This document shows positions 2 through 36,704 of a DNA stretch of 40,861 nucleotides, in pieces. Made by a program: the position numbers and the translations under genes. How positions within the stretch are numbered: position 1 is the first letter of the stretch; each line of letters opens with the position of its first letter. A model generated the notes under the pieces. It saw nothing but the letters and a program-made list of their open reading frames with translations. It did no database searches and was not told where the DNA came from. This DNA is from Desulfobacteraceae bacterium (GTDB lineage Bacteria; Desulfobacterota; Desulfobacteria; Desulfobacterales; JAABSP01), in the NCBI GenBank assembly GCA_011389855.1, contig JAABTM010000009.1, positions 1-40,861 of the forward strand, given 5' to 3'.

Positions 2-757
2 GTGCTGACCGAGGGCGTCAACATCGTTCTGGCCGTGGACCTGTCCGAGAGCATGGCCGCCCTCGACTTCCGGCGGGAGGGCAAGATCGTCAACCGGCTG
101 GAAGCGGTCAAAGGGGTGGTGGGGGACTTTATCCAGGGGCGCGGGGGCGACCGGATCGGTCTGGTGGTCTTCGGCGATGAAGCCTACACCCAGCTCCCGC
201 TGACCCGGGATTACAACGCCATCGCCGCCATGCTCGACCGGCTGGAGATCGGCGCCGCCGGAAAAAGCACCGCCATCGGCGACGCCATCGGCATCTCCCT
301 CAAGCGACTGTCCGACATCGAGAGCGCGTCGAACATCATCATTTTGCTGACCGACGGCCAGAGCAACGCCGGCCAGCTCTCCCCCGAAGCCGCCAGCGAA
401 ATCGCGGTGGAAGGGAACGTCAAGATCTATACCATCGGCGTCGGAACCCGGGGACGGGCCCCTTTCCTAATGAGGGATCCGGTTTTCGGCGAGCGGTACG
501 TCTATCAGCGGGTGAACATCGATGAGGAAACGCTGAAGGCCATCGCCGAAAAAACCGACGGCCTCTATTTCCGGGCCGAGGATACCGAGGCCCTCGCCAC
601 CATCTACGACCGGATCGACGCCCTGGAAAAGACCGAAGTGGAAGTGAAGACCTTTTCTGAATTCAACGACCTTTATCCCTACCCCCTGCTGCCGGCCTTC
701 GGCCTGCTCGTCCTCTGGGCCGTGCTGGCAAACACCCGGTTTCTGAGGATTCCATGA
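2..757 (+). CDS. batA: BatA-type von Willebrand factor A protein, 5' end outside window
   Basis: Partial gene; the reading frame is already open at the first base, so the real start lies upstream. The visible 251 residues begin just before a VWA domain with the MIDAS motif DLSES (D13, S15, S17) and a later TDGQS segment, which together bind a divalent metal. A hydrophobic segment near the C-terminus (about residues 228-244) would anchor it in the inner membrane with the VWA domain in the periplasm. The stop overlaps the ATG of the next gene (ATGA), and the downstream order VWA-TPR, BatD, BatE is the classic Bat operon. Bat proteins are linked to stress tolerance and envelope complex assembly, and their precise biochemical role is unsettled. 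BatA rather than BatB is chosen because it comes first. Confidence 0.88.
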   Translation: MLTEGVNIVLAVDLSESMAALDFRREGKIVNRLEAVKGVVGDFIQGRGGDRIGLVVFGDEAYTQLPLTRDYNAIAAMLDRLEIGAAGKSTAIGDAIGISLKRLSDIESASNIIILLTDGQSNAGQLSPEAASEIAVEGNVKIYTIGVGTRGRAPFLMRDPVFGERYVYQRVNIDEETLKAIAEKTDGLYFRAEDTEALATIYDRIDALEKTEVEVKTFSEFNDLYPYPLLPAFGLLVLWAVLANTRFLRIP

Positions 758-2592
758 CGTTCGCCAGAATCGAAATGCTCTTTCTGATCTGGGCCGCGCC
801 GGTATTGGCCCTGGTCATCGCCTACGGCATGCGCAGGCGGCGGAAAGCCCTCTCCCGGTTCGCCTCCCGAAACGGGCTGTCCGTCATCGCGCCGACCCCC
901 TCCGCCCGAAGACGGTGGGTCAAAGGGGGACTGTTGATCGCCGGGCTGGCGTTTCTATCCCTGTCCCTGTCCGGCCCGCGGTACGGGTTTCACTGGCGGG
1001 AAATCGAACGCCGGGGGGTGGACATCCTCATCGCCCTGGACTGTTCCCGATCCATGCTGGCCCGGGACCTTCAACCCACCCGGCTCGACCGGGCCAAACG
1101 GGAGGTGCTGGATCTCATCGCCATGCTCCAGGGAGACCGGGTAGGGCTGGCGGCTTTTTCCGGAACCGCCTTTCTCCAGTGCCCCCTCACCCTCGACTAC
1201 ACGGCGTTTCACCTGTTTCTCGACGTCTTGTCGCCGGATTATCTGCCGGTGGGCGGAACCGACATCACCGGGGCCCTGACCGTGGCCCGGAAGGGCTTCG
1301 ACCCGAAATCAGCGGCGGAAAAAGCGGTGATTCTGATTACCGACGGCGAGAACACCGGCCGGGGCGATCCGATAGAGGCGGCCCGAAAGCTGGAGGAAGA
1401 GGGGATCACTCTTTTTTGCATCGGCGTCGGCGGCGAGGAAGGGGTTCCGGTGCCCGCTGAAGACGGCGGGTTCAAGAAAGACCGGGAAGGACAGATCGTC
1501 ATGACCCGGCTCGATGAAGACGTTTTGCAGCGGATGGCCGTGCTGACCGGGGGAACCTACGTCCGGTCCGTGGCCGGGGATATGGATCTGGACGTCGTCT
1601 ACCGCCGGGAAATCAGGGGAAAAATGGAAGCGGCCGCCCTGGCCGGCGGCCGCAAACAGGTCTGGGAGGACCGGTATCAATGGTTTCTGGCCCTCGCCAT
1701 TCTCTGCCTGATCGCCGATCTGTTCCTCCGGCCGATGCGACGAACGTCGGGCGTCGCGATGGGATGCCTCCTGTGCCTCCTGGCCGGGGCCTTGTTCCCG
1801 TCTCCGACCCTCGCCGGACCGCTGCAAGAAGGCGTCGAGGCATACGACCGGGGGGAATACGAAACCGCCCTCAACCGCTTCATCGACGCCCAGCTCGACG
1901 CGCCGGACCGCCCCGACATCCTCTACAACATCGGCAACGCCTACTATAAACTGGGGGACTACGAAGCCGCCCTGGCCCATTACCAACAGGCCCTGGAAAA
2001 AGACCCGGCCGGACTGGGAGAAAAAGCCCAGTACAACAAAGGCAACGCCCATTTCAGAAAAGAGGAATACGAAGCGGCGATAAAGTCCTACGAAGCCGCC
2101 CTGAAGATCAATCCCGACGATCATCAGGCGGAGGAAAATCTCCGGTTCGTCCGAAAGGTGATGGAGCAACAACAACAACAACAGCAGCAGCAATCCGGCA
2201 AGGAAGAGGATGACGAAAAAAAGGAAAATGAAACATCTCGACAGGACGACCCTGGGCGGCAAAACAAACCATCAGGGGAATCCAAGAACGATGGACAATC
2301 CGGGCAGCCGCCGGAGCAGGGACCGGCGCAGCAGCCCGACGCCCCGGAACCCGGCCCCGAGTACGGCGACGAAATGACCGACGCGCGACAGCCCGGTCCC
2401 CGGCCGGATGAAGACGCCCCGGAGGAGAGCGCCCAGGCGGCGCCGCCGGCAGCGGCCGCCGAAACCCCTCCGGACGACGCCGAACGCGAAGCCGCGAAAC
2501 GGGCCCTGAACCGACTGAAGGACCAGCCCGGGAAAGCGCTGATGCCGCCGACGCCGCGCTACGGGCGTCCGGCGGTGGAGAAAGACTGGTGA
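754..2592 (+). CDS. BatB-BatC fusion: membrane VWA protein with C-terminal TPR domain
   Basis: 612 residues. Two N-terminal membrane segments (about 7-25 and 58-74) are followed by a VWA domain with MIDAS residues D96, S98 and S100, a downstream GGTD (T169/D170) and TDGEN (D197). A third membrane segment lies near 309-326. A second hydrophobic stretch (333-354) resembles the signal peptide of a stand-alone BatC, and it leads into TPR repeats (about 355-465, with motifs such as YNIGNAYYKLGDYEAALAHY). The tail is low complexity: a run of nine glutamines at 472-480, then charged and Pro/Ala/Glu-rich sequence. BatB and BatC are usually separate genes, so this looks like a fusion. Its start overlaps the batA stop and its stop overlaps the batD start, indicating translational coupling. 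A TPR-VWA protein in the periplasm would offer a protein-interaction platform. Confidence 0.88.
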   Translation: MTFARIEMLFLIWAAPVLALVIAYGMRRRRKALSRFASRNGLSVIAPTPSARRRWVKGGLLIAGLAFLSLSLSGPRYGFHWREIERRGVDILIALDCSRSMLARDLQPTRLDRAKREVLDLIAMLQGDRVGLAAFSGTAFLQCPLTLDYTAFHLFLDVLSPDYLPVGGTDITGALTVARKGFDPKSAAEKAVILITDGENTGRGDPIEAARKLEEEGITLFCIGVGGEEGVPVPAEDGGFKKDREGQIVMTRLDEDVLQRMAVLTGGTYVRSVAGDMDLDVVYRREIRGKMEAAALAGGRKQVWEDRYQWFLALAILCLIADLFLRPMRRTSGVAMGCLLCLLAGALFPSPTLAGPLQEGVEAYDRGEYETALNRFIDAQLDAPDRPDILYNIGNAYYKLGDYEAALAHYQQALEKDPAGLGEKAQYNKGNAHFRKEEYEAAIKSYEAALKINPDDHQAEENLRFVRKVMEQQQQQQQQQSGKEEDDEKKENETSRQDDPGRQNKPSGESKNDGQSGQPPEQGPAQQPDAPEPGPEYGDEMTDARQPGPRPDEDAPEESAQAAPPAAAAETPPDDAEREAAKRALNRLKDQPGKALMPPTPRYGRPAVEKDW

Positions 2593-4418
2593 GCTTGTTG
2601 TTTGTTGTTTGTGGTTTGTGGTTTGTGGCTTGTGGTTTGTGGCTTTTGGCTCGTGGCTCGCGGCATCACTATCCACTATCCACTATCCACTACCCACTAT
2701 CCACTATCTGTCTGACGATGCTTTTGTGCCCCCTCGCCGCCCCGGCGGAAGCCGCTTCGGTTCAGGCATCCGTGGATCGGAACACGGCGGCCCTGGGCGA
2801 ATCCGTCCAGCTCCGGGTGTCGGCCTCCGGGGTCGGGGACGGAGACGTTGATGTCTCGCCGATCCGGGATTTCAAGGTCATCCCCCGGGGCAGGAGCACC
2901 AATCTCCGGGTCGTCAATGGAACGACGTCCCGGGAGATCGTTTTCAACTACACCCTCGTCCCCCTGAAAGCCGGCGACCTTCGGATCCCGCCCCTCGCCG
3001 TCCGGACCCCCGGGGGCGACTACAGGACCCTAAGAATCGACATTACGGTCTCCGAACGGCCTCAAGAAAGCGCGGAGGATCGCGATATCTTCGTCAGGGC
3101 GGAGGTTTCCAACGACCGCCCCTATGCGGGAGAGCAACTGGTCTACACCTTCCGCCTCTACCGGACCCTCCGGATCACCGAAGCCCGGTTCCAGAAGCCG
3201 GATTTCGCCGGATTCACGGCTGAGCAGATCGGAGAAGAGCGCTCCGACATCGCCGTAATCAACGGAAAACGGTTTCACACCACCACGCTCTCCTATGTGC
3301 TGATTCCGCTGACCGCCGGCCCGAAAACCATCCAGCCCGCCGTTCTGGAATGCGGCGTGGTCCAGCGGGACCATCGGGGCGGGAGTTCGCCCTTTGATTT
3401 CGATTCCCTCTTCGGCCGGGGCCGGGTGGACACCCGGGCCCTGCGGACGGACGCCATCGACATCGACGTGCGTCCCCTGCCGGACCATCCGGAACCCCAC
3501 CCTTTTTCCGGGCTGGTGGGAAAGATGGACATCCGGGCGAGCCTGGATAAAAAAGACCTCAAGACGGGAGAATCCGCCACGCTGACCCTCGTCATCGAGG
3601 GCGCCGGCAATATCGTGGACGCCGAAGCCCCGGCCATGGACGTTCCGGACGGGTTCAAGGTTTACGCGGACGCCCCCCAGGAGGAGATCGCCCTGGACCC
3701 TAACGGCTACTTCGGGAAAAAGACCTTCCGGATGGCCCTGGTTCCGCTGGAACCCGGCGCTTACCGGCTGCCCCCCGCGAACCTGACCTATTTCGACACC
3801 GGGTCGGAAACCTATGTCGACCGCCGGACGGCGTCTTTCGATTTGACCGTGGGCGAGAGGGAAGCGGAAGAAGAGATGACCGTGGTTTCGGCCCCGAACG
3901 GCGGCAACGGGACCGACAAACAGAAAGTGGCGTTTACGGGACGGGACATCCTGCCCATACGGGAGGATCTGAGCGCGCTGGAAACCCGGCGGCCGCTCTC
4001 CATCCAGTGGTTCCTGGCGCTTCTCGGCATCCCGGCGGCCCTTTTCGCGGGGGTGGGCGGAGTCTTTCTCGCCCTTCGCAAGGGCGATGATCCGGCCGGT
4101 CGCATGGCGCGTCGGGCCCGTGTTTCCCTGAAAAAGGCCGGCGCTTCCGGCATCGGGGAGGATGTCTTTCTCTCCTGCCTCTACAGGGGGGTGGTGTCGG
4201 CGATTCTCTCCAGGTCCGGGGCTTCGGGGGAATCCCTCACCGGCGCCGAAGCCGAAATGATCCTGAACGGGCAGGGGTTCCCTCCCGAGGTGGTCCAAGG
4301 GGCCTCGGGGCTTCTGGAGCTGATCGAATCCGCCAAATTCGGCGGCGCTCCCCTGGCCTCCCCGGAACGGGAGCGGTTGCTGGCGGAGACCCGGCGCCTC
4401 GTCAGGCGGATATCGTGA
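2589..4418 (+). CDS. batD: BatD-like membrane protein, tandem-repeat-encoded N-terminus
   Basis: 609 residues. The body is a series of beta-rich immunoglobulin-like domains (about 56-445) followed by one membrane segment (about 475-497) and a cytoplasmic tail, the usual BatD plan. The GTG start is chosen because GGAG lies 8 nt upstream and the codon overlaps the batB-batC stop (GTGA), as at the other junctions of this operon. The first 55 residues are unusual: they are encoded by two heptanucleotide tandem tracts (2607-2662 and 2664-2705) and read as repeated FVVCGLW and YPLSTIH units before a more normal signal-peptide core and an AEA-type cleavage site near residue 55. ATG at 2718 is an alternative start giving a short signal peptide, but it has no Shine-Dalgarno sequence. 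Confidence 0.85.
   Translation: MSLLFVVCGLWFVACGLWLLARGSRHHYPLSTIHYPLSTICLTMLLCPLAAPAEAASVQASVDRNTAALGESVQLRVSASGVGDGDVDVSPIRDFKVIPRGRSTNLRVVNGTTSREIVFNYTLVPLKAGDLRIPPLAVRTPGGDYRTLRIDITVSERPQESAEDRDIFVRAEVSNDRPYAGEQLVYTFRLYRTLRITEARFQKPDFAGFTAEQIGEERSDIAVINGKRFHTTTLSYVLIPLTAGPKTIQPAVLECGVVQRDHRGGSSPFDFDSLFGRGRVDTRALRTDAIDIDVRPLPDHPEPHPFSGLVGKMDIRASLDKKDLKTGESATLTLVIEGAGNIVDAEAPAMDVPDGFKVYADAPQEEIALDPNGYFGKKTFRMALVPLEPGAYRLPPANLTYFDTGSETYVDRRTASFDLTVGEREAEEEMTVVSAPNGGNGTDKQKVAFTGRDILPIREDLSALETRRPLSIQWFLALLGIPAALFAGVGGVFLALRKGDDPAGRMARRARVSLKKAGASGIGEDVFLSCLYRGVVSAILSRSGASGESLTGAEAEMILNGQGFPPEVVQGASGLLELIESAKFGGAPLASPERERLLAETRRLVRRIS
2607..2705 (+). repeat. Two heptanucleotide tandem tracts inside the start of batD
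   Basis: Eight units related to GTTTGTG run from 2607 to 2662 (exact at 2607, 2614, 2621 and 2635, decaying to GCTTTTG, GCTCGTG and GCTCGCG). Six units related to ATCCACT follow from 2664 to 2705 (exact at 2671, 2678, 2685 and 2699). Three units equal seven codons, which produces the repeating FVVCGLW and YPLSTIH peptides. Since 7 is not divisible by 3, gain or loss of one unit would shift the frame between the GTG start and the mature BatD protein. Confidence 0.9.
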
Positions 4419-15069: not shown

Positions 15070-15131
15070 GCTATCCCTCCATTGTATCCGGTGATAGATT
15101 TAGGGGTTTTTGGTCACAGGTCACGGGTTAT

Positions 15132-15180
15132 GGGTTATGGGTGATAGGCGATAAGCGCGGTCGCCTGTCACCCATGACCC
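15132..15180 (-). other. Long imperfect hairpin between aprA and qmoA
   Basis: The 20-bp arm at 15132-15151 matches the reverse complement of 15161-15180 at 18 of 20 positions, around a 9-nt loop. The surrounding sequence is a decayed heptamer repeat (GGGTTAT units from about 15124). It sits in the leader of qmoA, downstream of the aprA terminator. Confidence 0.7.
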
Positions 15181-30028: not shown

Positions 30029-30346
30029 ATGAAAACCCGAGTGGAAGACGATACCCTGTTCCTGATTCCCGAAACCGATCTAGTGGCCAGCCGCATCGAA
30101 TCCCTCCGCAATTTCTTTGTGGAACAGATGGCGGCCCATCCGGAAGCGGCGAAGGTGGTGCTGGATGTCCACGGGGTGGAGACCGTCGACTCCCTGGGCG
30201 TCAACCTGGTCGTAGGGCTCTACCGGGAGGCCGCGGGCGCGTCCAAGACCATCGAAATCGTGGGCGCCAACGAGAAGTTCATGAAAGTGGCCCGTTTTTT
30301 CCGTCTGCCCGCCATCTTCACCATCCATCAGGAGGCGGCCCCGTGA
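30029..30346 (+). CDS. STAS-domain anti-sigma factor antagonist
   Basis: 105 residues, a single STAS domain. The phosphorylation loop DSLGVNLVVG contains the expected serine (S55). TGGAGAA lies upstream of the ATG. It starts 21 bp after the PP2C gene and overlaps the cheA GTG by 4 bp. In partner switching, the unphosphorylated STAS protein sequesters an RsbW-type kinase; here the likely partners are the kinase and phosphatase domains of the neighbouring fusion protein. Placement between the PP2C gene and cheA argues that it belongs to the same signalling chain. Confidence 0.9.
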   Translation: MKTRVEDDTLFLIPETDLVASRIESLRNFFVEQMAAHPEAAKVVLDVHGVETVDSLGVNLVVGLYREAAGASKTIEIVGANEKFMKVARFFRLPAIFTIHQEAAP

Positions 30347-33300
30347 CCGATTTCGATGAACTCCTGCCCGCCTTTGTCGAGGAATCCCAGCAGCACCTTC
30401 AGGTCATCGAGCCGGATCTGCTGGCCCTGGAAAAGAGCGGAGAAAATGTCGATCCCGACACGGTCAACCGGATCTTCCGGGGCGTTCACAGCATCAAGGG
30501 GGCGTCGGGGTTTTTCGGGTTCCAGAACATCGGCCGCCTCAGCCACGTCATGGAAAACTCCCTCTCCCTGCTCCGGGACAACAAGATCCCCCTGACCACC
30601 CCGCTCATCGACGCCCTCCTGTCGGGGGTGGACGCCCTGAAAAGCATGCTGGAAGACATCTCCGGCAGCGAATCCTTCGACATCGACTCCGAGATCGCCT
30701 TTTTAAAGGGGCTCATCGACGAGAACGCCGAGGCCCCCAAAACCGTGGCCGTGTACAAAAAACCCGCCGATCACCAGACGACCGGGACCGTGCCCGCCCA
30801 GTTCCATGTCCCCCGGAGCGAAATCCGGCGGCTGGTGGAGGCCGGCCAGAACCTCTACGCGGTGAAGATCTACCTCAACGAGGATCTCCGGAAACGGGGC
30901 CGGACCCCTTACGATTTCATCAACAACATGGAGACCACCGGCGAGTTCATCGATTCTTTTCTCGATGTGGAAAGCGTCTCGGGCCTGTCGGACTGCCTGG
31001 AAAACGAACTGGCCTTCGATTTTCTCTTCGCCACGGACCTGACGCCGGGAACGATTCCCCATGCGCTGGATCTGCCGGGGGATCGGGTGACGGTGATCGA
31101 TTTGGGGGCGGTGGAGGGGAAAGAGGGGAAAGAAGGGACAGAGGGACAGAGGGACAGAGGGACAGAGGGACAGAGGGACAGAGGGACAAAGGCGGGAAAC
31201 GAGGGCGCGTCGGAGGTTCCGGGGAAAAAGGAACCGGAGGGGCGGGGGCGGGGGCGGGGGCGGGGGCATGTGCAGGCCGAGGAGAAGATCCGGGTGGGGG
31301 TCAATTTTCTCAACGAGCTGGTCAATCTGGCCGGGGAGCTGGTGCTGGGCCGCAACCAGTTGCTCCAGGCGGCCCTGCCGCTGGTCAAGTCGACGCCGGG
31401 GCTCAATCCCGTCCTCCAGCACATCAGCCGCGTCACCACCGAGATGCAGGAAAAGATCATGCAGATGCGGATGCAGCCCCTGGCGATCGTCTTCGACAAG
31501 TTCCAGCGGGTGGTCCGGGATCTGGCCAAAAAGCACTACAAGGAGATCCGGCTGGTCGCGTCCGGCGGCGACGTGGAGCTGGACAAGACCATCATCGAGG
31601 GGCTTTCGGATCCGTTGACCCACCTGGTGCGAAACGCCGTGGACCACGGCATCGAATCCCCCGGGGACCGGGAAAAGGCGGGCAAGCCGCGGTACGGGAC
31701 CATCACCCTCAAGGCGTTTCACCAGGGGGGACAGGTCCACCTGACCATCGTCGACGACGGCCGGGGCGTGGATCCCGATTTCGTGGCCGGGAAAGCCGTG
31801 GAAAAGGGGATCATCTCCCGGGAAGCGGCGGCCGGCATGAGCGCCAAGGACCGGACCCGCCTCATCTTCCGGCCGGGATTTTCCACGGCCAAGGAGATAA
31901 CCGACCTCAGCGGCCGGGGGGTGGGCATGGACGTGGTGCTGACCAACATCGAAGGCATGGGGGGGACCGCCGACCTCGAATCCGCCCCCGGCCAGGGCTC
32001 GACGGTCACCCTGGTGCTGCCCCTGACCCTGGCCATCGTGTCGGGGCTGATGATCGAATCGGGGGGCCAGTTCTTCATCCTCCCCGAGGTGGACATCGAC
32101 GAACTCGTCCGGGTCAAGCCCGACGAAATCGGAGAGCGGATCGACGCGGTCCGGAACGCCTGGGTCCTGCGGCTGAGGGACGTGCTCCTTCCCCTGGTGG
32201 ACCTCAACCGGCTCCTGGGGTTGACGGAACCCGGCGCCGGAACGGATCTGACCGACCGGGACGATCCCCTGCGGATCATCGTGGTCAAACAGGGCGGGAT
32301 CCGGTTCGGCCTGGTGGTGGACCGCATCGTCAACACCGAAGAGATCGTGGTCAAGCCCCTGCCCCGGTATCTCAAGCGGATGGCCTGTTTCTCCGGGGTC
32401 TCCATCCTGGGCAACGGCAAGGTCTCCCTGATCCTGGACGTGGCGGGCATCGTCAAAAAAACGGCCATCCGGCGGCTGGAAACCATCGACGAGGAGGCGG
32501 AGCGGGCCGGGGAACAGGAGGAAGGCGCGGTGGCGGCCGAGGTCCAGACCCTGCTCATCTTCGACAACGACACCCCGGAGCGGTTCGCCCTGCCCCTGGA
32601 ACTCATCAGCCGGATCGAGAAGGTCTCGGCGTCCCGCATCGAGCGGATCAAGGACAAGCAATTTCTCCAGTACCAGGGCGAAAAGCTCCGGCTGGTTTTT
32701 CTGGAGGATCATCTGCCGGTGACCCGGCCCGAGCGTTCCCCCGACGACACCATCGGCCTCATCGTCCCCAAGGGGATGGCCCATCCCATGGGGATCGTCT
32801 TCAAGGAAGTGATCAACACGGCCATGGCGGCCGTGGAACTGGACACCGCCAGCATCATGGCCCCGGGCCTGTTCGGCGCCGCGGTGATCGACGACCGGAT
32901 CACCCTTTTGCCCGACATGTACCGCCTCTTCGAGATGGCGGCCCCGGAGTGGTACCGCACCGAACAGGCGCCCGGCGGGGTGGAGAAGAAGGCGCCCCGG
33001 ATCCTCCTGGCCGAAGACACGCCGTTTTTCCGGATGGTGGAAAAGGACTACCTCGCCTCGGCCGGCTACGAGGTGCTGGCGGCGGAAAACGGCCGGCAGG
33101 CCCTCCAGATCCTGGAGGAGGAACCGGTGGATGCGGTGATTCTCGACATCGTCATGCCCAAGATGACCGGGTGGGAGGTCATCGCCGCCATCCGCTCCGA
33201 TCCCCGGCTGGAAAAGCTGCCGGTGATGGCGGTGACCTCCCTGGGCAACGAAGGGGATCTGTCGGTGGTGGAAAAAGGCTACGAGGCCGGATTCGACGAG

Positions 33301-33387
33301 TGGGAGCTGAAGCTGAACAAGACCCGGCTCCTGGAGAAACTGGCCGGTATGCTGAGATCCGCCGGCGCCAAAGGAGAATCGTCATGA
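30343..33387 (+). CDS. cheA: Hybrid CheA histidine kinase with C-terminal receiver
   Basis: 1014 residues, GTG start overlapping the STAS stop. The HPt domain (1-110) has H49 in GVHSIKGASGFFGF. A second, less conserved domain spans about 135-262. A repeat-coded linker (about 263-307) contains GQRDRGTE units from an octanucleotide tract and an RG-rich stretch from a GGGGGC tract. The dimerisation domain (from about 310) precedes the ATPase core, with HLVRNAVDHGIES (N box, from 427), VDDGRGVD and GRGVGMDVV (from 524). There are two CheW-like domains (about 565-710 and 730-860) and a final receiver with D935 in ILDIVMPKM. It should autophosphorylate in response to the adjacent MCP and pass phosphate to its own receiver, CheB, or the PP2C regulator. 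Confidence 0.92.
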   Translation: MTDFDELLPAFVEESQQHLQVIEPDLLALEKSGENVDPDTVNRIFRGVHSIKGASGFFGFQNIGRLSHVMENSLSLLRDNKIPLTTPLIDALLSGVDALKSMLEDISGSESFDIDSEIAFLKGLIDENAEAPKTVAVYKKPADHQTTGTVPAQFHVPRSEIRRLVEAGQNLYAVKIYLNEDLRKRGRTPYDFINNMETTGEFIDSFLDVESVSGLSDCLENELAFDFLFATDLTPGTIPHALDLPGDRVTVIDLGAVEGKEGKEGTEGQRDRGTEGQRDRGTKAGNEGASEVPGKKEPEGRGRGRGRGHVQAEEKIRVGVNFLNELVNLAGELVLGRNQLLQAALPLVKSTPGLNPVLQHISRVTTEMQEKIMQMRMQPLAIVFDKFQRVVRDLAKKHYKEIRLVASGGDVELDKTIIEGLSDPLTHLVRNAVDHGIESPGDREKAGKPRYGTITLKAFHQGGQVHLTIVDDGRGVDPDFVAGKAVEKGIISREAAAGMSAKDRTRLIFRPGFSTAKEITDLSGRGVGMDVVLTNIEGMGGTADLESAPGQGSTVTLVLPLTLAIVSGLMIESGGQFFILPEVDIDELVRVKPDEIGERIDAVRNAWVLRLRDVLLPLVDLNRLLGLTEPGAGTDLTDRDDPLRIIVVKQGGIRFGLVVDRIVNTEEIVVKPLPRYLKRMACFSGVSILGNGKVSLILDVAGIVKKTAIRRLETIDEEAERAGEQEEGAVAAEVQTLLIFDNDTPERFALPLELISRIEKVSASRIERIKDKQFLQYQGEKLRLVFLEDHLPVTRPERSPDDTIGLIVPKGMAHPMGIVFKEVINTAMAAVELDTASIMAPGLFGAAVIDDRITLLPDMYRLFEMAAPEWYRTEQAPGGVEKKAPRILLAEDTPFFRMVEKDYLASAGYEVLAAENGRQALQILEEEPVDAVILDIVMPKMTGWEVIAAIRSDPRLEKLPVMAVTSLGNEGDLSVVEKGYEAGFDEWELKLNKTRLLEKLAGMLRSAGAKGESS
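31133..31188 (+). repeat. Octanucleotide tandem repeat inside cheA
   Basis: Six perfect GAGGGACA units (31141-31188) preceded by one variant unit (AAGGGACA). Three units equal eight codons and encode the repeating peptide GQRDRGTE. Change by one or two units would shift the cheA frame. Confidence 0.95.
31239..31267 (+). repeat. GGGGGC hexamer repeat inside cheA
   Basis: Four perfect GGGGGC units (31244-31267) after one imperfect unit, encoding alternating Arg-Gly. The unit is a multiple of three, so length changes would only lengthen or shorten the linker. Confidence 0.9.
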
Positions 33388-33876: not shown

Positions 33877-33937
33877 GAGGGACAGAGGGACAGAGGGACA
33901 GAGGGACAGAGGGACAGAGGGACAGAGGGACAGAGGG
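33877..33937 (+). repeat. Octanucleotide repeat between cheW and mcp
   Basis: Seven perfect GAGGGACA units (33877-33932) plus a partial one. Same unit and orientation as in cheA. It fills most of the 100-bp gap. Confidence 0.95.
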
Positions 33938-33975: not shown

Positions 33976-36279
33976 ATGATCAGAGCGTTCATGAACCTGA
34001 AAGTCGGCATGAAGATCGGCATCACTTTCGCACTGGTGCTGGGCCTCGGCGTCGTCCTCGGCGGCGTCGCCCTTCTGGACATCCGGGAGGTGCGGAAGCA
34101 ATCTCAAAAACTGGCCCGGGAATACGCGCCGGAGGTGGCGGAATCCGGCCATGTGGAGCGCCACAGCCTGCTGACCATGTACAACATTCGGGGGTACGCC
34201 CTGAGCGGGGACGAAACCTATCTGACCCGGGGCCGCGAATACCTGGCCCAGGTCCGGGACGATCTGAAGGACGCCCAATCCCTGGCCCAGCAGTACGAAG
34301 ACCTGGCCCAACTCCGGGAGCCTCTCAGCGATGCCCGGATCGCCGTGGACACCTATGAGGGGCTTGTGGAACGGACGGTCGCCTTCAACCGCGCCATTTC
34401 GGGCAACCGGGAAACGCTGGATGCGGCCGCCGACCGCTATGTGACCAACATCCGCGAGTTCATCGGCCAACAGACCGAGTCCCTGGCCCGGGATATCCGG
34501 GCCGGCGCCCTCGGCGAAACCCTGCTGGAACGGCTGGAACGGGTCCGCCTTCTCCAGCGAATCATGGAGGAGGGCAACGCCATCCGCGTCGCCAACTTCA
34601 AGGCCCAGACCAGGCGGAACTACGAAGCAATCCGGGAGATCCTCAAGGATTTCGACGCCATCCGGAACCTCCTGGAACAGCTCCGGGCCATCACCCTGGA
34701 CGCCGAAGGACTGCGCCGGATCGACGTCGTCGCCGACGCCGCCGGCAATTACCGGACCGTTATGGAAAAGCTTCTCGACAACCGGCTGGCCATCGAATCC
34801 CTCAACACGGAGCGGGACGCGGTGGCCAAAGGGCTGCTCGACATCGCCCAGGACGTCTTCGTCACCGGCATGGACCGGATGATCGCCGTGGCGGCCGACA
34901 CCGATGCGCTGCTGTCCAGAACCGTGACGGTCTCCTTTTTCGGATTGATCGTCGGGGTCCTTCTGGCCGCGGCCGTGGTGGTTTTTCTCACCCGGCTGAT
35001 CACGCGGCCCATCCGACAGGTCATGGAGGCGACCAAACGGTTCGGCGACGGAGACCTCACCGCCGCGGTGTCCGTCGAATCGGAGGACGAGATCGGCCAG
35101 ATGGCGGGGAACCTCAACCGCTCCATCGGCAACCTGCGCGCCCTCATGCAGGAAATGGCCGACGCCGCCAACACCCTTTCCAGCGCGTCCGAGGAACTCT
35201 CCTCGGTTTCCAGCGATATGGCGGCCTCGGCCGAGGAGATGAACGCCCAGGCGGGCACCGTGGCCGCGGCTTCGGAAGAGGTCAGCGCCAGCGTGGGGAC
35301 CGTGGCCTCGGCCGCCGAGGAGGCCAGCGCCTCGGTGTCGAGCATCGCCTCCATGACCGAAGAGATGTCTTCGACCTTCGGGAACGTGTCCGGCGCCGGC
35401 CGGAAGACCGCCGACAACGTGACGGCCATGGCCCGGTCCAGCGAAGACATCTCGTCCCAGGTCAACAGCGTGGCCTCGGCCGCCGAGGAGATGACCACGT
35501 CGCTGAACGAGGTGGCCAAAAACACGGCCCAGGCCAGCCGGATCTCCCAGAACGCCAAATCCCGCACCGACGTCATCAACAGCCGCATCGACGCCCTGGT
35601 CGCCGCCTCCAAACAGATCGGCAAGGTGGTGGGGGTCATCAAGGACATCGCCGACCAGACCAATATGCTGGCCCTGAACGCCACCATCGAGGCGGCCGGC
35701 GCCGGGGACGCCGGCAAGGGGTTCGCCGTGGTGGCGGGCGAGGTCAAGGAACTCGCCCGGCAGTCGGCCGACGCCACCGACGAGATCGCCGACCAGATCG
35801 ATCAGATCCAGCGCTCCACCGACGACGCCGTGTCCGCCATCGAAGAGATCAACAAGATCATCGGCGAGATAGCCGGCATCAACGAGATGATCGCCTCCTC
35901 CTCGGAGGAACAGACCGCCACCGCCTCCGAAATCTCCAAATCGGTGGCCGGGGCCGCCGTCACCGTAAAAGAAGTCGCTGAAAACGCGGGTGAATCGGCT
36001 GATCTGGTGGGGGAAATCGCCCGCTCCATCGACGAGGCATCCAAAACCGCCGCCGAAGTGGCCCGCAACATCGACGAACTCCTCAACGGGGTCAAAGAGG
36101 TGGCCCGATCCTCGGACGAGGCGGCCCGGGGCGTCAACGACATCTCCAAAAACATCCAGAACATCAGCCAGGCGTCCCGGCAAACCGCCTCCGGCGCCGC
36201 CCAGACCGACCAGTCCTCCAAAGAGCTGGCTGAAATGGCTTCGAAATTGTCGCGGTTGGTGGGGCGGTTTAAATTGTAG
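33976..36279 (+). CDS. Methyl-accepting chemotaxis protein
   Basis: 767 residues, ATG with GGAG 8 nt upstream. Membrane helix 1 (about 11-33) and helix 2 (about 317-338, [20 protein letters not shown]) enclose a sensor domain of about 280 residues that is mostly helical, a size fitting a helical bimodular type sensor. HAMP follows (about 339-392, [20 protein letters not shown]). The cytoplasmic signalling hairpin tip contains [14 protein letters not shown] and [20 protein letters not shown] (about 558-595), the CheA/CheW contact region. Many Ala/Ser/Glu heptads provide the methylation helices. There is no C-terminal CheR-tethering pentapeptide. The ligand is unknown. The stop codon abuts another octanucleotide tract, and the gene is thus bracketed by direct repeats. 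Confidence 0.94.
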
Positions 36280-36302
36280 AGGGACAGAGGGACAGAGGGA
36301 CA
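36279..36302 (+). repeat. Octanucleotide repeat at the mcp stop codon
   Basis: Three GAGGGACA units; the first G is the last base of the mcp TAG. Same orientation as the tract upstream of mcp. Confidence 0.93.
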
Positions 36303-36390
36303 GAGGGGGAAAACCCCGTATCGCAATAGATAGCGAGACTGAAACCCTAAAAACCAGCTCAGTAATATTGATAATGCGTTGGTCCGCCTG

Positions 36391-36615: not shown

Positions 36616-36679
36616 TGTCCCTCTGTCCCTCTGTCCCTCTGTCCCTCTGTCCCTCTGTCCTTCTGTCCCTCTGCCCTTC
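36616..36679 (-). repeat. Octanucleotide repeat upstream of cheB, opposite orientation
   Basis: Five perfect TGTCCCTC units (36616-36655) then three variants (TGTCCTTC, TGTCCCTC, TGCCCTTC). This is the reverse complement of the unit found in cheA and around mcp. It ends about 15 bp before the cheB ribosome site. Confidence 0.93.
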
Positions 36680-36704
36680 TGCACCCTTTCATTAAGGAAA
36701 ACAT

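Follow-up and report, generated by a model that had tools for sequence, protein, structure and literature searches.

A convergent heptamer array at the start of batD belongs to a family of repeats dispersed through a Desulfobacteraceae genome

The start of batD and its repeat array

The stretch of DNA analyzed here (the window, 40,861 nucleotides) is contig C317 of a draft MAG from the Desulfobacterales (5.26 Mb, 569 contigs). Pfam searches identified a BatD domain gene in a bat operon, with VWA and TPR genes on its flanks. Comparisons were made with a sister species, the Desulfobacteraceae MAG S20.Bin143 (G001; locus L084). The features discussed below are as follows.

754–2592, plus strand: fused batB-batC type gene (VWA plus TPR; Pfam)
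2577–2580, plus strand: GGAG ribosome-binding site for the batD GTG, within the end of batC (sequence read)
2589–2591, plus strand: batD GTG start, overlapping the batC stop (GTGA) and shared with G001
2589–4418, plus strand: batD (Pfam BatD, PF13584, E 3.9e-41)
2595–2664, plus strand: left arm, 10 heptamer units of GGYTTGT type (TRF; lag-7 score 39)
2611–2705, plus strand: predicted RNA hairpin, in which left-arm GUGG pairs with right-arm CCAC, with 3-nt internal loops between unit pairs
2646–2648, plus strand: in-frame TTG within the array, a possible, unproven alternative start; the leader from here reads MARGSRHHYPLSTIHYPLSTICLTMLLCPLAAPAEA
2667–2708, minus strand: right arm with 6 heptamer units of CACTATC, read as GGATAGT along the minus strand (TRF; lag-7 score 29)
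2712–2755, plus strand: native leader remnant, made up of the last part of the hydrophobic core plus the cleavage region (TMLLCPLAAPAEAA), against ...AAWLLSASAFAAS in G001
2713–2715, plus strand: TGA that ends the GTG frame on simulated loss of one unit, two bases before ATG 2718
2718–2720, plus strand: ATG named in the preliminary description as the alternative start, with no ribosome site and a leader without basic residues
4415–5203, plus strand: batE-like gene (TPR plus SH3), overlapping the batD stop

The preliminary description had favored a GTG start with a good ribosome site and an operon overlap, and this choice is supported by comparison. The GGAG site lies 8 nt upstream of GTG 2589, and the same overlapping start is conserved in the sister species, where batC ends in ...EKDW, batD begins from the overlapping GTGA and the leader reads VIHSAGKIIVAALAVMAGAAWLLSASAFA/AS with the array absent. 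In most relatives, batD starts a few bases from the batC ...KDW stop.

A signal sequence has been predicted for BatD of another bacterium (PMC3557215). When read from GTG 2589, the leader in the window spans 57 residues (about 31 in G001 and 22–40 in most relatives), carries no Lys or Arg among its first 20 residues and includes two hydrophobic stretches. Because this leader is unusual, export may differ from that of the relatives, or another start may be used. If batD started downstream, at ATG 2718 or TTG 2646, the array would be mostly an untranslated leader that alters batC-batD spacing or coupling. A codon-usage gene caller indeed favors 2718, though the caller penalizes repeats, and the leader from TTG 2646 has two Arg among its first six residues, as in relatives. 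However, the sequence before ATG 2718 (CTATCTGTCTGACG) contains no ribosome site, and the resulting leader of ~13 residues would lack Lys and Arg, whereas most relatives have 22–40 residues, one or more of them basic and close to the N-terminus. With the overlapping GTG and its GGAG also kept in the sister species, we assign the downstream starts a small though appreciable chance.

Two period-7 tracts lie between GTG 2589 and mature BatD, as determined by TRF and lag-7 scoring. Their lag-7 scores (39 for the left tract and 29 for the right) are well above the highest value, 12, from 200 whole-window resamples under a Markov-1 model. The left arm is composed, in order, of TTGTTGT, TTGTTGT, TTGTGGT, TTGTGGT, TTGTGGC, TTGTGGT, TTGTGGC, TTTTGGC, TCGTGGC and TCGCGGC, that is, two TTGTTGT units, five TTGTGGT/TTGTGGC units and three decayed ones. 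The right arm consists of three CACTATC, one CACTACC and two further CACTATC units. We thus count 16 units (10 at 2595–2664 and 6 at 2667–2708) rather than the 14 given earlier, while the peptides then assigned to them, FVVCGLW and YPLSTIH, are correct on translation. The units are imperfect and diverged, and the longest perfect stretches span 3.1 and 3.7 units.

Reverse-complemented, CACTATC becomes GATAGTG, or GGATAGT in another phase, and the left arm can be read as GGTTTGT or GGCTTGT. Since CACTATC reversed gives GGATAGT, both tracts fall into one degenerate family, GGNTWGT. The two tracts described earlier are present, but they are not unrelated repeats: they are inverted arms of a single family, opposed to one another like the two sides of an imperfect hairpin. 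The RNA minimum free energy for 2586–2725 is -42 kcal/mol (z -2.95), and the DNA fold of the opposite strand at the array gives z -3.20. Stop codons are absent from both tracts in all three forward frames, and a heptamer array yields an identical 7-residue peptide whichever of the three frames is read.

Other arrays were also observed in the window. Octamer arrays of GAGGGACA at 31117–31192, 33877–33937, 36278–36307 and 36616–36682 show the same habit as the heptamer family: one lies in frame within the linker region of a kinase of CheA type (30343–33387; Hpt, dimer, ATPase, CheW and receiver domains), two are in gaps in the same orientation and one is reversed. The same CheA linker also contains, at 31239–31267, a hexamer array of GGGGCG coding for Arg-Gly repeats. 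A second small convergent array occupies intergenic DNA at 15112–15180, with GGGTTAT heptamers first and reversed units of the CCCATGACCC type after them.

Dispersal of the GGNTWGT family

A search of the source genome with 200 bp around the tract returned 33 matches, and pattern searches added further ones. Overall, the genome harbors at least 23 array sites of the GGNTWGT family, batD included. We examined 22 other sites in the source genome together with sites in G001 and in a further genome (G002). Among the 22, 19 are intergenic apart from slight overlaps with gene ends, as judged by a home-made, simple codon-usage gene caller, and these gap copies often reach the ribosome site of the gene that follows. 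Every two-armed site was convergent and none divergent (19/19: batD, 13 others in the same genome, 4 in G001 and 1 in G002), the sites representing the source genus and a second, related genus. Distribution across the phylum is patchy: of 395 genomes sampled, 6 contain three exact, consecutive GGNTWGT units. From dispersal alone we infer that the element may move; the G001 sites read as array-free (batD and C241:417) are too diverged for a clear call of target-site duplications. A conserved core between the arms (GCTTCAGCCNCCGGATT), suspected from three loci, was dropped when a pattern search found it mostly away from arrays.

Copies were also found inside proteins. The element occurs within three long open reading frames with Pfam domains and, judging by the open frames and Pfam matches on either side, is a palindromic insert that would be read in frame in unrelated genes. 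In an HrpA-type helicase, the array occupies residues 614–629, between the HA2 and OB domains; the linkers at this position in relatives consist of non-repeat sequence. An activase of the 2-hydroxyacyl-CoA-dehydratase type carries the element in frame, and the array at the same place in G001 is shorter by 99 nt, a length divisible by 3 though not by 7. An HdrA-like protein of G001 with a response-regulator domain has ~45 residues at the array, in place of a linker that is 3 to 5 residues long in four relatives. A fourth array-bearing frame (L130) has no Pfam match and may not be a gene. Separately, the HrpA gene of another genus (G009, L163) has its own heptamer array, TCGAAAC, in frame at ORF positions 945–970 and 2887–2938.

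This distribution bears on the idea that convergent arrays are functional RNA or DNA elements, acting in stability, termination or regulator binding upstream of ribosome sites, with batD as one regulated member. The hairpin is significant (z about -3), many copies stop a few bases short of a ribosome site, and a like idea has been put forward for the TAACTGA repeats of Beggiatoaceae (PMC4679880). The batD copy, however, lies downstream of the start rather than upstream and is missing in the sister species. One-armed copies and copies within proteins argue against a single conserved role, and placement before starts may simply follow from the filling of short gaps. We therefore see only a rather slim chance that batD is a regulated member of such a set.

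A false join or a misassembled run of units is a further concern in a draft MAG of 569 contigs. Yet the genes flanking the tract, batC to the left and batD to the right, follow the gene order of the operon in relatives, the tract is ~115 bp long, and similar arrays occur in the separately assembled G001, making an artefact highly improbable. Because the genome is a draft MAG, the unit counts at batD could nevertheless be wrong.

Turnover, leader and reading frame of batD

Ortholog comparison with G001 covered five sites. In the C462/C370 gap, G001 has the left arm only and the source genome has both, which suggests that a second inverted arm may have grown on an existing arm, loss in G001 being equally possible. 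Arrays are present in both species in the C241:3501/C129 gap, with changed units and an 8-nt length difference, and the small array of the C241:417 gap is missing in G001. At batD, G001 has no array but the same GTG start and an ordinary signal peptide, which argues that the array is lineage-specific, although its absence from the G001 batC-batD junction could also reflect loss there.

The distance from the start to the mature anchor is 78 nt longer in the window than in G001. Since the remnant TMLLCPLAAPAEA/AS matches the end of the G001 leader, the array appears to have taken the place of the n-region together with the early hydrophobic core. The proposal that the repeats write the signal peptide thus holds for the n-region and early core, whereas non-repeat sequence accounts for the end of the core and for the cleavage region (TMLLCPLAAPAEA/AS). 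The BatD leader of the window is odd, yet its end resembles a signal peptide.

Short repeats were also noted in the BatD leaders of relatives, namely GAGAGGT (L086/L090) and GGATGCT (L087). The batC-batD junction as a hotspot of heptamer arrays was considered and rejected, as only two other loci in 43 had such arrays, at low score; we retain the weaker statement that the BatD leader may be permissive for repeats. At the junction in L097 and L013, the end of batC and the start region of batD are duplicated in tandem. The BatD leader of Desulfosarcina widdelii (L106, upstream of 6001) contains an FRRRPESR-type stretch, a palindrome-type peptide that we take to resemble a common palindromic repeat peptide.

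In simulation, loss of one unit reduces the GTG frame to 39 codons ending at the TGA at 2713–2715, gain of one unit brings a stop at 2849–2851, and loss of three units restores the BatD frame. The expectation that a one-unit change breaks the frame is therefore confirmed. Such arithmetic is what a phase-variable switch would need, with single-unit slippage alternately breaking and restoring the BatD frame, in the manner of the Neisseria opa leader repeats or E. coli neuO. A unit length of 7 is not divisible by 3, the tract separates the start from the mature protein, the product would be truncated at 2713 or 2849 on loss or gain of one unit, and repeat-coded leaders are already known (PMC3899988). 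On the other hand, the units are diverged, with perfect runs of only 3.1 and 3.7 and no long homogeneous tract, and these short runs make frequent slippage appear less likely. The same element occurs in core enzymes, where switching is implausible and where the 99-nt difference in the activase keeps the frame, and it is found at no fewer than 22 further sites in the genome. None of the observations made here indicates phase variation of bat genes. The notion of a variable switch specific to BatD, as advanced in the preliminary description, is not supported by these observations; we assign slippage-driven switching a low probability and consider a dedicated phase switch at batD unlikely.

Origin of the batD array and comparison with known repeats

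Dispersed heptamer arrays have been described as the TAACTGA repeats of Beggiatoaceae, cyanobacteria and Bacteroidetes (PMC4679880), as the heptanucleotide elements of Geobacter metallireducens (PMC2700814) and as cyanobacterial STRR. A literature search turned up no account of heptamer arrays from Desulfo-type genomes. The GGNTWGT family shares with STRR, TAACTGA and Geobacter heptamers the 7-bp tandem units, the many dispersed and mostly intergenic copies, often just before starts, the patchy spread among genomes and the occasional coding copies. It differs from the TAACTGA family in that its unit is degenerate and both batD arms are stop-free, whereas TAACTGA has forward-strand stops. Facing arms are common here, unlike in Beggiatoaceae, where one indirect repeat was reported against 169 sets of direct repeats (PMC4679880). 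Also unlike known heptamer arrays, other GGNTWGT copies lie inside proteins and not only at protein ends.

Rickettsia palindromic elements (RPE) are palindromic repeats that lie in frame in unrelated genes and are read as extra residues (PMC10969869). In-frame palindromic inserts in unrelated genes are thus common to both, but RPE are ~150-bp families with a conserved peptide, from which an array of variable length with no conserved core is set apart by description. In Neisseria, leader-coding repeats switch genes (PMC3899988). Like the CTCTT repeats in the signal-peptide region of opa and the heptanucleotides of E. coli K1 neuO, the batD tract is made of short tandem units in 5' coding sequence whose length is not a multiple of three. 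Whereas those are single-gene phase switches, the batD tract has two arms and diverged units, and many further copies are dispersed through the genome. The opa and neuO switches work through longer, more uniform tracts. The GGNTWGT element has features of each known kind and fully matches none, being distinguished by its degenerate unit, convergent arms and within-protein tolerance.

We consider it likely that the batD tract is a copy of a dispersed convergent heptamer array, a passively tolerated insertion that rewrote the start of the leader, and not a dedicated switch. The element would have the layout (GGNTWGT)n, a short spacer and the inverse (ACWANCC)n, and would have entered, or grown at, the batC-batD junction, most likely after the split from the sister species. 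As the two genes overlap and leave no gap, the array lies within the beginning of batD, flanked by the original GTG and the original end of the core. Given a net insertion of 78 nt (26 codons) and stop-free arms, translation from GTG 2589 could read through into BatD in vivo, and the array probably now encodes additional leader residues. The left arm would then supply an extra hydrophobic stretch, and the junction ARGSRHH and the YPLSTIH units would supply a basic, polar n-region, with the native core TMLLCPLAAPAEA still placed before the cleavage region. The arms presumably lengthen and shorten by replication slippage, and the inverted arm probably arose from fold-back copying of the first arm. 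Any effects on batD are likely incidental, whether exerted by an mRNA hairpin ~20 nt downstream of the start or by rare changes in unit number that break the frame.

More broadly, convergent stop-free heptamer arrays could be an actively multiplying palindromic class that writes signal peptides and linkers de novo, with other heptamers playing the same role in related genomes, a reading that we put forward only tentatively and regard as doubtful. On this wider reading, insertions would be tolerated unusually often because the peptide encoded by a stop-free heptamer array is the same whichever frame is used.

The batD array cautions against equating a heptamer tract near a start codon with a phase switch until the rest of the genome has been checked. 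Pairs of sister genomes such as the source species and G001 would allow the gain and growth of arms to be tracked site by site. If the wider reading is true, these arrays would represent a second, unrelated case beside RPE of dispersed palindromic repeats supplying coding sequence, with a simple reason for their tolerance in any frame.
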